In this document: positions 54,870 through 58,438 of the stretch, one piece after another
How positions within the stretch are numbered: position 1 is the first letter of the stretch
How the letters are laid out: every line of letters begins with the position of its first letter
Source: Nakamurella flavida
GTDB taxonomy: Bacteria; Actinomycetota; Actinomycetes; Mycobacteriales; Nakamurellaceae
NCBI RefSeq assembly: GCF_030811475.1
Contig: NZ_JAUSQV010000001.1
Location: 496,001 to 560,000 of the forward strand
DNA: 64,000 bases
Reading direction: 5' to 3'
Notes under the pieces: generated by a model
What the model saw: the letters and a program-made list of their open reading frames with translations, nothing else
Told to the model about the DNA's origin: nothing
The model's database searches: none
Made by a program: the position numbers and the translations under genes

Positions 54870-54875
54870 ATGCTA
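54870..54875 (-). promoter_or_regulatory. Leaderless -10 box TAGCAT of the 79-aa gene
   Basis: TAGCAT is followed by CCGGGC and ATG 54863 on the minus strand. It lies in the 9-base gap after, and slightly inside, the pentapeptide gene. Confidence 0.5.
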
Positions 54876-55712
54876 CGCGCGGGGCCCTCGACGCCGGGTC
54901 GCCCAGTGCGCCGGTTGGGTCAGCCGCGGGGGGAGCGCGGTGCTGTCGTCCCCGCGGGCGGACTCCAGCTGGGCCTGCTGGACGAACAGCGCGGTGCGGA
55001 GATCGGCCCCGCGGAGGTCCGCTCCGCGGAGATCGGCGCCGGTGAGATCGGCCAGCGCCAGGTCGACGCGACGCAGGTCCGCCCCGATCATCAACGCCCC
55101 GCGCAGGCTGGCTCCGCGCAGGTCCGCCGGCCGGAGATCGGCCCCGAACAGGTCGGCGCCGCGGTGGTCGGCCCGGGGGCCGGGGGAGGCGGAGCGGGCC
55201 TGGTCGGACGCCGCGCGGAGCAGCACGTTGGTCGAGGCGTGGAGGGCGTCGACGTCGAGCCGGCGCAGGACCTCGGGGGGAGCCGCCCGGTGGGCGGAGA
55301 GGGCGTCGACGCTGTCCTGCAGTCGACGGCGCAGCGCACCCGTGGTGACGTCCCGGGCGGCCACGACGAACCACAGCAGCTCGTGCAGGTCGCGGGCGAC
55401 CGGGAAGGTGGCGAACATGTCGCGGGCGAGGGCGGGGGACCCCTGCCAGCTGCGGCCGCCGAAGCCGACCTGGGTCAGTTGCTGGCCCGCGCCGAAGCAG
55501 TCGTAGACGGTGCATCCGGCGAAGCCGCGGTCCCGCAGGCGGGTGTGGATGCCGCACCGGGTGTCGGGCTGCAGATTCGGGCACGGCGTCCCGGCGGGCT
55601 TGTCGATCGCGAAGTCGGCGGATCGGGCGAACGCCGGGACGACGCAGCACAGACCGGCGCACCGGCTGCAGTCGGCGGCCAGGTCGGTGAGCTCCAGACG
55701 GGAACCGTCCAC
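54873..55712 (-). CDS. Cys-rich domain plus pentapeptide-repeat protein
   Basis: A 279-aa protein with two parts. Residues 1-75 hold a CxxCxxxCC cluster (CSRCAGLCC) plus CPNL, CGIH and GCTVYDCFG, resembling YkgJ-type metal-chelating domains. Residues about 185-245 are pentapeptide repeats of A(D/N)LxG form (GADLFGADLRPADLRGASLR), a right-handed beta-helix that often mimics DNA. Function unknown. GTG 55712. Confidence 0.78.
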   Translation of the reverse strand: MDGSRLELTDLAADCSRCAGLCCVVPAFARSADFAIDKPAGTPCPNLQPDTRCGIHTRLRDRGFAGCTVYDCFGAGQQLTQVGFGGRSWQGSPALARDMFATFPVARDLHELLWFVVAARDVTTGALRRRLQDSVDALSAHRAAPPEVLRRLDVDALHASTNVLLRAASDQARSASPGPRADHRGADLFGADLRPADLRGASLRGALMIGADLRRVDLALADLTGADLRGADLRGADLRTALFVQQAQLESARGDDSTALPPRLTQPAHWATRRRGPRA

Positions 55713-55757
55713 GTCACGTCACCGCCCCGTCAGCTCTCGTCGTCCGGACGAACGAAA

Positions 55758-55787
55758 AGGCCCGCCCGGGGACTCCCGGACGGGCCT
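55758..55787 (-). terminator. Strong intrinsic terminator of the tRNA-like RNA gene
   Basis: On the minus strand a 13-bp stem (one GU pair) with loop AGTC is followed by TTTTCGTT. It begins seven bases after the encoded CCA of the tRNA-like element and is the clearest U-tract terminator in the window. Confidence 0.85.
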
Positions 55788-55794
55788 CTCGCAC

Positions 55795-55848
55795 TGGTGG
55801 AGGACCCAGGAATTGAACCTGGCGAGGCGCCCCAAGTGCGCATCCCCC
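55795..55848 (-). ncRNA. Short tRNA-like RNA with alanine acceptor identity, beside an MprF-type gene
   Basis: The 54-base minus-strand element folds as a tRNA missing its D arm. The acceptor 5' strand GGGGGAT (55848-55842) pairs with GTCCTCC (55805-55799), with G-U at pair 3 and pair 7; discriminator A and CCA follow (55798-55795). The T arm is perfect: CCAGG, loop TTCAATT, CCTGG (55822-55806). Between them is one hairpin, GCGC-ACTTGGG-GCGC, and a 4-base linker. G3:U70 with A73 is the alanine identity recognised by AlaRS even in minihelices. A candidate promoter and a strong terminator flank it. It is too short for a ribosomal tRNA. I infer an alanylated RNA serving the adjacent aminoacyl-tRNA-dependent lipid transferase; an inert tRNA remnant is the alternative. 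Confidence 0.72.
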
Positions 55849-55862
55849 TTGTACTGAACGTG

Positions 55863-55891
55863 ACTGTACAACACCGTTCCGGCCGGTGCAA
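55863..55891 (-). promoter_or_regulatory. Candidate promoter of the tRNA-like RNA
   Basis: On the minus strand TTGCAC (55891-55886), a 17-base spacer and TACAGT (55868-55863) predict a start near A55855, seven bases before the acceptor stem. An inverted repeat TTGTAC/GTACAA (55849-55871) spans the -10 box and start and may be an operator. Confidence 0.55.
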
Positions 55892-55935: not shown

Positions 55936-58122
55936 TCAGTGCCGGACGACCGACAACATCTCACCGATGCCGGCGTTCGGCAGGTACGCACGGGTGATGG
56001 CCAGGCCGATCCGGGGCAGGTCGGCCTCGTCCCGGTAGACCATGTACATCGGGGTGAGCCGGGGCTGGAACTTGGCCTTGAACTTGTGCAGGGAACGGAA
56101 TCCGTACACCGGTTCCAGGGTGGCGCCCAGGGTGTTCAGGAACTTCTCCACCGCCTTCTCCGGGTGGCCCTCCTCGCCCTCCGAACGGGCCAGCGGCGCA
56201 CCGGACAGCGAGACGAATTTCGCCCCCTGGTCCTTGAACCACAGGCAGGACGAGGCGATGAGGAACTCCATGGTGGCCCGGAAGCCACCGTCGGCCCGGC
56301 GCATGAGATCCAGCGTCCACCCGGCGATCTCGCCGTCGCGGCCGTAGACCGGCATCCACGAGGTCACCCCCTGGACGATCCCTTCCTGGTCCAGGGCCAG
56401 GCCGACCCGGACCTCCGGGTCCAGGGCCTCGGTGAGCCCGCCGAGGGTGAATCCCATCTCGGGGAGCTTCTTGTCGCCCAGCCATTCCTGGGAGAGGTTC
56501 TCGACCTGTCGGACCAGTGCCCACGGCTCGTCGGAGAGGTTGACCATCCGGAAGGTGATGCCTTCCTTGGGGGCCTTGTTCAACGCCGTGCGGATGTCCT
56601 GCCACTTCTTGCCCTTGAACTCCAAGGCGGGCAGGTCGATGACGTTGTCCTCGGCGACCTGGGCGCTCTGCCACCCCAGGGCATCGGTGACCGCGGTGGT
56701 CTCGGCGGTGCACGAGAAGATGTAGGGCACCATCCCGGCCCGGTCGCACAGCGTCACGAAGGCGTCGATCGTGGCCTTCTTCGATCCGGGGGGCCCGACG
56801 GGATCGCCGAGGGCGACCGCAACGTTGGCGTGCCGCACGAACGCGATGAAGCTCTCCCCGTCCTCGGTGATCATGTGCCGGTTCTCCGACCAGGTGGTCA
56901 TCCAGGAGATCGTGTCGCCGCCCCACTTCTTGATCAGCTCGCGGGCGGTCTCGGGGTGGGCGCTGCTGGTGGCGAGCCTGCGCCGGCTACGCCGGGGGAC
57001 CCGGAAGGAGCGCCGGGTGACGATGAGCATGACCAGGAAGGACGCGGTGATCACCGAGGTGGCCACGAACTCCGGGATGCCGTCGAGATCGAGATCGGCG
57101 TCGGGGAAGATCAGCGACAGGATCCAGACCGCGATGACCAGGACGACGAGCAGCAGCGGGAGTGCGAGCAACACGATCTCGGTCACCCACGCCCAGCGGT
57201 ACCCGCGGCGGAGCCCGTTGGCGATGAGGACGGTCAGCAGCAGGATGCCCAGCACGAACCAGGTGGCGGTGTCGTCGACCCCGTCGTCCACTCCCAGGGG
57301 GGTGATCCGGTTGGGCAGCAGATTACCGATGATGAGCATGCCGGTGGTGACCAGCGACATGGCGAACGCCAGGAGCCGGACCTCGTGCCGGGTGGGCAGC
57401 GCGCGGGCCCGCAGGCCACGGGGCCCGGCCAACCGGGTCGAGAACGGGAGCGAGAGAGCCACGGCGACCAGGTGTTCCGCATCGGCCATCTGCCCGACGA
57501 AGAGGAACGAGAACAGGACGTAGATCCAGATCGCCAGCCGCAGCCGCAGTCGCCACGGGGGACGGACCGCTGCGGAGGCGACGCCCAGCACGGCGAGCAT
57601 CCCGGCCGAGAAGCCGACATCGGTCTCCTGGGCGCGGTCGGCCGCCCAGGTCCAGCCGGTGTTGCGGAAGATCAGGAAGACCAGGGCCACGACGAGGACG
57701 GCGACGACCTGGTACGCGACGGTGAGGACGATGGTGCGCCGGGTGCCGAGCTTGTATTCGGCGAACCCGGTGAGCAGGGCGAAGGCGCCGGCCACGAAGA
57801 GGTAGTAGACGGGGTACAGGGCGAAGAAGTTTCCGGTGACCAGCGTCCACCAGCGACCGGCCTCGAAGGAGGGGAGCCCGTAGGAGATGTCCGGGTACCA
57901 CGGCTTGTCCTCGGCGTTCGACCAGAGCGTGCCGAACGCTATCGACAGGGCCATGGTGATCAGCACGTAGGCGGTGGTGAACGGCACCCGCTTGGCCACG
58001 GCCAGGAACAGTGCCCGCTTGCGACCGGGCGCCGTGTCCGCGGCGACCGCCGCGGCCGTCGGGCCGCCGGTCGCCGGAGCCGCCACGCTTGCGCCCCCCG
58101 GCTTGTGCTCCACATCGGTCAT
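55936..58122 (-). CDS. MprF-type aminoacyl-phospholipid synthase with rhomboid-like membrane domain
   Basis: A 728-aa membrane protein. Residues about 45-230 look like a rhomboid-type membrane domain: GRWWTLVTGNFF (89-100), FAEYKLGTRR, GFSAG (170-174, Ser172) and a membrane His217. More TM helices run to about 345. Residues about 365-715 are a DUF2156/MprF catalytic domain (SFIAFVRHANVAVALGDPVG; FVSLSGAPLARSEGEEGHPE; LEPVYGFRSLHKFKAKFQPR), which moves an amino acid from aminoacyl-tRNA to phosphatidylglycerol or another lipid. ATG 58122 has GGGGGAGG nine bases upstream. The canonical flippase domain is replaced. The lipid and amino acid are not determined; the adjacent alanine-type RNA suggests alanine. 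Confidence 0.82.
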   Translation of the reverse strand: MTDVEHKPGGASVAAPATGGPTAAAVAADTAPGRKRALFLAVAKRVPFTTAYVLITMALSIAFGTLWSNAEDKPWYPDISYGLPSFEAGRWWTLVTGNFFALYPVYYLFVAGAFALLTGFAEYKLGTRRTIVLTVAYQVVAVLVVALVFLIFRNTGWTWAADRAQETDVGFSAGMLAVLGVASAAVRPPWRLRLRLAIWIYVLFSFLFVGQMADAEHLVAVALSLPFSTRLAGPRGLRARALPTRHEVRLLAFAMSLVTTGMLIIGNLLPNRITPLGVDDGVDDTATWFVLGILLLTVLIANGLRRGYRWAWVTEIVLLALPLLLVVLVIAVWILSLIFPDADLDLDGIPEFVATSVITASFLVMLIVTRRSFRVPRRSRRRLATSSAHPETARELIKKWGGDTISWMTTWSENRHMITEDGESFIAFVRHANVAVALGDPVGPPGSKKATIDAFVTLCDRAGMVPYIFSCTAETTAVTDALGWQSAQVAEDNVIDLPALEFKGKKWQDIRTALNKAPKEGITFRMVNLSDEPWALVRQVENLSQEWLGDKKLPEMGFTLGGLTEALDPEVRVGLALDQEGIVQGVTSWMPVYGRDGEIAGWTLDLMRRADGGFRATMEFLIASSCLWFKDQGAKFVSLSGAPLARSEGEEGHPEKAVEKFLNTLGATLEPVYGFRSLHKFKAKFQPRLTPMYMVYRDEADLPRIGLAITRAYLPNAGIGEMLSVVRH

Positions 58123-58438
58123 GACGGCCAACCTCCCCCTGCCCGGAGCCGGTGGCTCGGGGCTGTGTCGTGCATCCTAGGTCCCGACCGCCAGGTCGGA
58201 CGAGTGTTCGTGCAGGTCATGAGGGCCTGCGCAGTGCGGCGGGATCACCGTCCGGTGACGGCGGTCCGCCGGGTCCGATGTCCGCCTGCTGCCCGTCGAA
58301 CCCGTCCGGTCGCCGGTGCGCCGACCGGGTCGCAGGGGTCGCCGTCGACCGCCCTCGTGGCACGCACGTGCCGCATGTGGTCACCCTAGGTGGCCGGGGT
58401 GAACTCAGGGTTGCCGCCCAGCCGGCCGCTGGTCGAGG
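58123..58438. other. 316-bp region upstream of the MprF-type gene
   Basis: No supported gene is seen. It must hold the MprF-type promoter; TAGGAT on the minus strand at 58179-58174 is the best -10 candidate. The part 58200-58438 holds nothing I can recognise. Confidence 0.4.
58174..58179 (-). promoter_or_regulatory. Candidate -10 box of the MprF-type gene
   Basis: TAGGAT on the minus strand lies about 50 bases before ATG 58122, giving a leader of about 45 bases with the GGGGGAGG site. No -35 is clear. Confidence 0.35.

Follow-up and report, generated by a model that had tools for sequence, protein, structure and literature searches.

A conserved tRNA-like RNA without an anticodon arm, associated in Actinomycetes with a truncated alanyl-tRNA synthetase paralog and MprF-type genes

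The window, that is, the whole 64,000-nucleotide stretch of DNA analysed here, contains on its minus strand a gene for an MprF-type protein, and the stop codon of this gene lies 87 nucleotides upstream of a small tRNA-like RNA. The features of this locus, with the type of evidence for each, are as follows.

55936 to 58131, minus strand: MprF-type protein with an LPG_synthase_C domain (PF09924, profile match) and a putative N-terminal membrane region (from sequence only)
55863 to 55868, minus strand: weak candidate -10 box, TACAGT (sequence)
55795 to 55848, minus strand: tRNA-like RNA core of 54 nucleotides, lacking an anticodon arm (fold, conservation, covariation)
55842 to 55848, minus strand: 5' strand of the acceptor stem, GGGGGAU, with G3 at 55846 (sequence, covariation alignment)
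55827 to 55841, minus strand: D-arm-like hairpin of 4 base pairs with a 7-nucleotide loop, GCGC-ACUUGGG-GCGC (stem covariation; the loop covaries with the T loop)
55823 to 55826, minus strand: 4-nucleotide linker, CUCG, in place of the anticodon arm and variable loop (sequence)
55806 to 55822, minus strand: T arm, CCAGG-UUCAAUU-CCUGG (sequence, alignment)
55799 to 55805, minus strand: 3' strand of the acceptor stem, GUCCUCC, with U70 at 55801 (sequence, alignment)
55795 to 55798, minus strand: A73 and the encoded CCA, ACCA (sequence)
55755 to 55787, minus strand: terminator-like hairpin and TTTT (sequence, fold prediction)

Read from 55848 to 55795, the 54-mer consists of the segments from acceptor stem to ACCA in the order listed. 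It has the upper parts of a tRNA cloverleaf, namely, a 7-bp acceptor stem, a discriminator, a 5-bp T stem and a 7-nucleotide T loop. An initial annotation of this DNA had assigned G3, U70 and ACCA (55798 to 55795) to these positions, correctly as judged from the sequence, and the fold that it had drawn is the minimum-energy fold of the 54-mer, with acceptor stem, hairpin and T arm (-22.6 kcal/mol). With flanking sequence, the minimum-energy fold of the core depends on the chosen ends: it is kept in two of three longer stretches (55870 to 55795, and 55880 to 55740, where the terminator hairpin is added), and 55870 to 55745 folds the core differently. The gene on the 3' side of the RNA (54873 to 55712, minus strand) appears to code for a cysteine-cluster (YkgJ-like) protein with pentapeptide-like repeats.

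A scan for this fold, in which the only sequence demand was a T[TG]CNA T loop, found a single site in the 64 kb, which is the 54-nucleotide RNA; the same scan of 30 Markov windows (1.92 Mb) gave one match, without NCCA. ARAGORN reported only a tRNA-Leu in the window and left the RNA uncalled. Rfam assigned the RNA no family at gathering score, and at a relaxed E value gave weak, unrelated matches, none of them to tRNA and 7 of 12 of them on the terminator hairpin. Neither program called a tmRNA in the window, and the unit is too small for a tag reading frame.

To judge from flanking signals, the RNA appears to be transcribed on its own. The initial annotation had proposed a candidate promoter and a 13-bp terminator with a U tract. 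Of the latter, the hairpin (13 bp including one G-T pair) and the TTTT are present, but a terminator scan of the window, which needs five T in eight bases, did not call it. The promoter is just a TANNNT-like box, TACAGT, because a sigma-70 promoter scan of the window gave no match at the RNA. In other copies of the RNA, perfect downstream arms of at least 12 bp are found in 70 of 129 flanks and in none of 387 shuffled flanks, and arms of at least 7 bp are absent from 54 of the 129. A TANNNT box lies 5 to 32 nucleotides upstream in 78 of the 129 flanks, as compared with a shuffle mean of 25.8, many of these flanks being from related species. At 55849 to 55871, the candidate promoter lies within a perfect inverted repeat of 6 bp, TTGTAC-N11-GTACAA, which is absent from six other RNA upstream sequences that we compared.

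The unit is conserved. In a blastn search of 40 relatives, it was found in six further genomes of the window's genus, with similarity essentially limited to it. A first covariance model, built from the seven RNA sequences of this genus, identified the RNA in 7 of 17 genomes of the genus and in two additional genomes in a draw of 249 from the order. A draw from the class added six, and the RNA was present in 8 of 394 genomes, the same eight with a second model. A pattern scan of named genomes found at least 118 stretches, of which 116 fit the RNA fold; the two others (L100 and L161) were left out of later counts. Among the pattern matches listed, most are from Arthrobacter and its relatives, and others are from Pseudonocardia, Williamsia, Gordonia, Microbacterium, Agromyces and Pseudoclavibacter. 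The RNA is thus a conserved family in Actinomycetes. Typical actinobacterial copies also occur on contigs labelled Vibrio cholerae, Acidobacteria, Sporosarcina and Kitasatospora and on one whose taxonomy line reads cyanobacterium (L110, L165, L192, L126, L139), which are probably contamination or wrong labels.

Weak covariance matches, of about 33 bits or less, were excluded: 17 such loci were inspected and none was accepted as the RNA. ARAGORN names tRNA-Ser in eight of them (L029 to L031, L036, L037, L053, L054 and L058), and the remainder seemed unrelated. In the genome from which the window comes, the sole other match at E of 0.1 or less covers 26 nucleotides of the terminator part. Matches in plasmid and phage collections were limited to the acceptor 3' end and the terminator part, and no viral contig carried the RNA pattern.

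We aligned 77 distinct RNA sequences, in which 16 pairs are formed in 99.8% of cells. Seven pairs have two-sided changes, including a change from G-C to C-G at the first pair of the hairpin, and the covariation score is 0.293, versus 0.102 when shuffled; this alignment was fitted to the covariance model, and hence leans towards the structure. A MAFFT alignment of the RNAs of the genus (six distinct sequences) gives 100% pairing, with two-sided changes at two pairs. All of these compensatory changes fall in the D and T stems, which they support. The acceptor stem is nearly invariant (GGGGGA followed by U or C, with GUCCUCC, then A and C) and varies only by a change from U-G to C-G at pair 7.

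The hairpin that the initial annotation had set apart from a D arm, in calling the RNA D-arm-less, does in fact correspond to one. Its last two loop bases are coupled with the T loop: the first coupling is G with U55 in 69 of the 77 sequences and A with G55 in the other 8, and the second, a G with C56 of the T loop, is found in all 77. The eight A:G55 sequences seem to belong to a single lineage, so that the coupling reflects only a few independent events. Judged by sequence, these contacts are the G18:55 and G19:C56 pairs of the tRNA elbow, and the hairpin is therefore read as the D arm, its loop and the T loop changing together as they do in that elbow. Several copies from Gordonia and Williamsia have a loop (CGGUUGGG or CGGAUGGG) that is near a standard D loop. 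The arm that is missing is the anticodon arm: in all 77 aligned relatives, a linker of four or five nucleotides between the D and T arms replaces it and the variable loop. The RNA is thus unable to decode, and on this point the original description stands.

So does its assignment of an alanine-type acceptor. The acceptor identity elements of bacterial tRNA(Ala) are A73, G2:C71, G3:U70 and G4:C69 (PMC9976931, in the portion available), and all are present in 77 of 77 sequences, although the pattern scan itself fixes most acceptor bases, these included. G3:U70, A73 and the acceptor stem are also identical in the 7 model-building sequences and at 8 further places found with the genus model, where these bases were not strictly required. 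ACCA is encoded in 39 of the 77.

The proposed association with MprF-type genes held up in several genera, but that reading had missed the main partner, which is a dedicated, truncated AlaRS paralog that often lies beside the RNA in other genera. Gene clustering of RNA loci outside Micrococcaceae revealed three recurrent neighbors: this paralog (about 465 amino acids; hereafter mini-AlaRS), an MprF-type protein (PF09924) and an esterase (PF00756) whose N-terminal stretch appears to be membrane-spanning. We would guess from the domain type that the esterase is PesT-like. At least one partner gene is present in 31 of 131 RNA loci examined, a set that includes pattern-scan matches as among the matches listed, and for which the stretch examined was 8 to 20 kb in nearly all cases. 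By label, the 100 loci without a partner are 90 of Micrococcaceae type, five of the window's genus, three with odd labels (Vibrio, Acidobacteria and Sporosarcina, whose neighbors cluster with Arthrobacter-type neighborhoods) and one each from Pseudonocardia pini (on a contig of 9.5 kb) and Williamsia limnetica. Once the Micrococcaceae-type loci, those of the window's genus, the three with odd labels and three duplicates are set aside, at least one partner lies near the RNA in 26 of the remaining 28 loci (26 of 31 with the odd labels), two of the 26 (Kitasatospora- and Rhodococcus-labelled) having doubtful labels. Gene order and strand vary among partner-bearing loci. Mini-AlaRS is present in 20 of the 26, with at least 57% identity to the queries, as compared with about 42% for canonical AlaRS, and in 14 loci, including one from the window's genus, a mini-AlaRS match lies within 180 nucleotides of the RNA. 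The idea that the RNA is confined to MprF neighborhoods is wrong, however: none of the 90 Micrococcaceae-type loci has a partner in the examined stretch, and the RNA there has a stable position of its own, in most cases flanked by an acetyltransferase gene and a response-regulator gene. The acetyltransferase reads as a mycothiol synthase.

Mini-AlaRS covers only positions 2 to 431 of the 552 in Pfam PF01411, corresponding to the catalytic and recognition domains; the protein ends after the latter, and the editing and C-Ala domains are absent. In a profile alignment it matches, over its full length, the crystallised catalytic fragment of E. coli AlaRS. A structure model of moderate confidence (pLDDT 74) aligns with AlaRS catalytic fragments with Z of 30 to 32 and rmsd of 2.8 to 3.6 over 342 to 408 residues; the next family, GlyRS alpha, gives Z 9.7 and rmsd 3.9 over 182 residues. 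In a tree, 30 mini-AlaRS are separated from 24 canonical AlaRS by a branch with 100/100 support. Mini-AlaRS of the window's genus are scattered in this tree and form no single group, which suggests horizontal transfer.

The class II motif residues, including the arginines, are intact in mini-AlaRS. Equivalents of Trp170 and Asp235 are retained in all 30, and the Asn and Asp that read G3:U70 (Asn303 and Asp400 in E. coli numbering, which fits the profile alignment) are present in 27 and 28 of the 30. In three proteins of a Gordonia/Rhodococcus-labelled clade (L083, L139 and L268), the Asn is changed, and in two of these the Asp also; their RNAs keep G3:U70. All 30 carry changes in the pocket region: the Trp of EIWN is Gly, a motif 3 Thr is Phe or Tyr, and there is a seven-column insertion. 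Because mini-AlaRS is systematically altered near the active site, the identity of the amino acid as alanine is uncertain.

The RNA and mini-AlaRS tend to occur in the same genomes. Among the 17 genomes of the window's genus, 9 have mini-AlaRS, including all 7 that have the RNA, and the RNA is in none of the 8 without mini-AlaRS (Fisher p 0.0019). In the class draw of 394 genomes, the RNA and mini-AlaRS are each in 8, with 6 shared (p 1.6e-10, kinship ignored). MprF orthologs of at least 65% identity are found in the same 7 RNA-bearing genomes of the genus and in G015, where mini-AlaRS and the MprF gene are divergent neighbors. Weaker homologs occur in G008 (51%) and in G004 (56%), which has neither the RNA nor mini-AlaRS.

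Other results do not fit this association. Canonical AlaRS is the only form in eleven RNA-bearing genomes of Micrococcaceae type, namely, G250, G518 and nine identified from RNA loci in Arthrobacter, Paenarthrobacter, Sinomonas, Tersicoccus and Acaricomes. Ten of the 11 have a PF09924 protein; since 7 of 14 control genomes do as well, its mere presence says little. Conversely, in G008, G015, G358 and G530, mini-AlaRS is present and the covariance model found no RNA genome-wide, nor did an unfiltered covariance search and a fold scan find a diverged RNA within about 20 kb of mini-AlaRS. In the window's own genome, the RNA (at 551,795) and mini-AlaRS (at 1,492,288) are about 940 kb apart, and five other RNA loci of the genus lack a partner nearby. 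A second, distinct MprF-type gene lies about 4.7 kb from mini-AlaRS in this genome (L297), and a similar pair is found in L305. From the Micrococcaceae, the four genomes without RNA and the 940-kb gap, we therefore conclude that the parts are usable separately, or that canonical AlaRS can stand in for mini-AlaRS.

Given the conservation and structure of the RNA, the genes linked to it and its co-occurrence with mini-AlaRS, we consider it probable that mini-AlaRS charges a non-decoding mini-tRNA that feeds a lipid transferase. In this scheme, a stand-alone gene would be transcribed into a small tRNA(Ala)-like carrier with acceptor stem, D arm and T arm, to which CCA would presumably be added where it is not encoded. 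The dedicated mini-AlaRS would read G3:U70 and A73 and charge the CCA end, probably with alanine. The charged RNA would hand its amino acid, most likely alanine, to the MprF-type membrane enzyme (similar to alanyl-diacylglycerol or alanyl-phosphatidylglycerol synthases), and thence to lipid; the membrane esterase may act on the product or in the same pathway. Because such a carrier never enters the ribosome, an editing domain would be dispensable, and lipid modification would not compete with translation for Ala-tRNA. A catalytic part can suffice for acceptor-stem RNAs, as excerpts on the mini-AlaRS of a virus and on a fragment of Aquifex AlaRS show; the corresponding E. coli fragment bound such RNAs poorly (PMC10036535). 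RNA, mini-AlaRS and lipid enzyme together suggest a private amino-acid supply apart from protein synthesis. With somewhat less assurance, we favor a broader view of an aminoacylation circuit separate from translation, in which a minihelix-like tRNA and a minimal AlaRS would use only the acceptor-stem "operational code", feed lipid modification and have spread in part horizontally across Actinomycetes.

The same system might carry another amino acid, such as serine or glycine. The pocket changes in every mini-AlaRS and the missing editing domain are in keeping with this, but the Trp170 and Asp235 equivalents are kept throughout and the acceptor bases are those of alanine identity, so we regard another amino acid as unlikely, if well worth bearing in mind. 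It is also rather doubtful that ordinary AlaRS charges the RNA, as it always would in Micrococcaceae, on behalf of some other alanine transferase, for example a Fem-type enzyme making the cross-bridges of peptidoglycan, with the MprF link being secondary. This would account for the eleven genomes with canonical AlaRS only and the 90 loci without MprF in the examined stretch, and for Aquifex AlaRS a catalytic fragment is enough to charge a G3:U70 minihelix (PMC10036535, in part). It leaves the association of RNA, mini-AlaRS and MprF elsewhere unexplained, however, and the lipid route is open in Micrococcaceae-type genomes too, because PF09924 proteins are found in 10 of 11.

That the RNA is a regulator or decoy, charged or uncharged, we consider improbable; in that case it would titrate or sense mini- or canonical AlaRS and control the lipid genes, but would pass on no amino acid. 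Its apparent stand-alone transcription and the lack of an encoded CCA in many copies agree with such a role, but the elbow, the 12-bp stack of acceptor and T stems, the invariant identity bases and a synthetase with intact class II motifs are what a substrate needs, and CCA can be added to tRNAs after transcription. We give almost no credence to the idea that the fold arose by chance or that the unit is left over from a tRNA gene at an integration site. A T arm, CCA and terminator are typical of integrase target sites, and the covariance model gives weak matches to tRNA-Ser(GGA), whose acceptor stem is similar. The whole 54-nucleotide unit, including its 5' half, is nonetheless conserved in many genera with compensatory changes, its own genome holds only the terminator match described above, and the pattern was absent from viral contigs; covariation, spread and the rarity of the fold in the scan contradict both remnant and chance.

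The proposed charging of a dedicated, non-decoding RNA by mini-AlaRS has partial parallels in known systems, here compared through the available portions of the papers. The tRNA-like domain of tmRNA is, like the RNA described here, the upper half of an alanine-accepting tRNA without an anticodon arm (PMC3929946). The present RNA, on which ARAGORN and Rfam are silent, differs in being stand-alone, with 54 nucleotides, a D stem and no mRNA part. LysX is an MprF protein fused to a LysRS paralog, and VlmL/VlmA pairs a SerRS paralog with an MprF-like ligase, so that in both a dedicated synthetase paralog serves an MprF-type user of aminoacyl-tRNA (PMC9437257, PMC2922099). These accounts, in the portions available, name no dedicated RNA, in contrast to the dedicated, non-decoding carrier proposed here, and the synthetase in our case is of AlaRS type, unfused and without an editing domain. 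A natural mini-AlaRS of Tupanvirus likewise lacks editing and C-Ala domains and charges a G3:U70 acceptor-stem RNA (PMC10036535). It differs in being viral, in having lost the Asn and Asp readers and in charging tRNA(Ala) as well, and the available text names neither a partner RNA nor a lipid enzyme. In Corynebacterium, a six-TM MprF homolog, AlaDAGS, makes Ala-DAG, and pesT was deleted along with its gene to remove Ala-DAG and Ala-PG synthesis; the excerpt mentions no dedicated RNA or AlaRS (PMC10580965).

Staphylococci have a non-translational tRNA(Gly) for cell-wall bridges, which is diverted from translation, with weakened EF-Tu binding, and, unlike the RNA described here, retains the whole cloverleaf with its anticodon. 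The open-access (PubMed Central) literature searched yielded, among the matches listed, no account of the RNA or the module. Dedicated synthetases for MprF-type enzymes and an alanine-accepting upper half in tmRNA are already known; no precedent was found among those open-access matches for a free-standing tRNA without an anticodon arm that would have its own synthetase. A 2023 review treats as open the question of how aminoacyl-tRNA is diverted from protein synthesis by MprF enzymes (PMC9976931, in part). If our reading is correct, a dedicated carrier that cannot decode, served by a synthetase of its own, would answer it directly for these bacteria and make it testable through one small RNA gene. 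The system would also be a natural counterpart to laboratory experiments with alanine minihelices and a ready orthogonal pair of synthetase and RNA.

With respect to origin, the acceptor stem GGGGGAU/GUCCUCC is near that of the tRNA-Ser(GGA) of the same genus, GGAGGAU/AUCCUCC, and because the two stems are alike, descent from a tRNA-Ser(GGA)-like tRNA is possible. In Gordonia desulfuricans, two copies of the RNA (L156, 2700 to 2755 and 6363 to 6418) lie on either side of one MprF-type gene.
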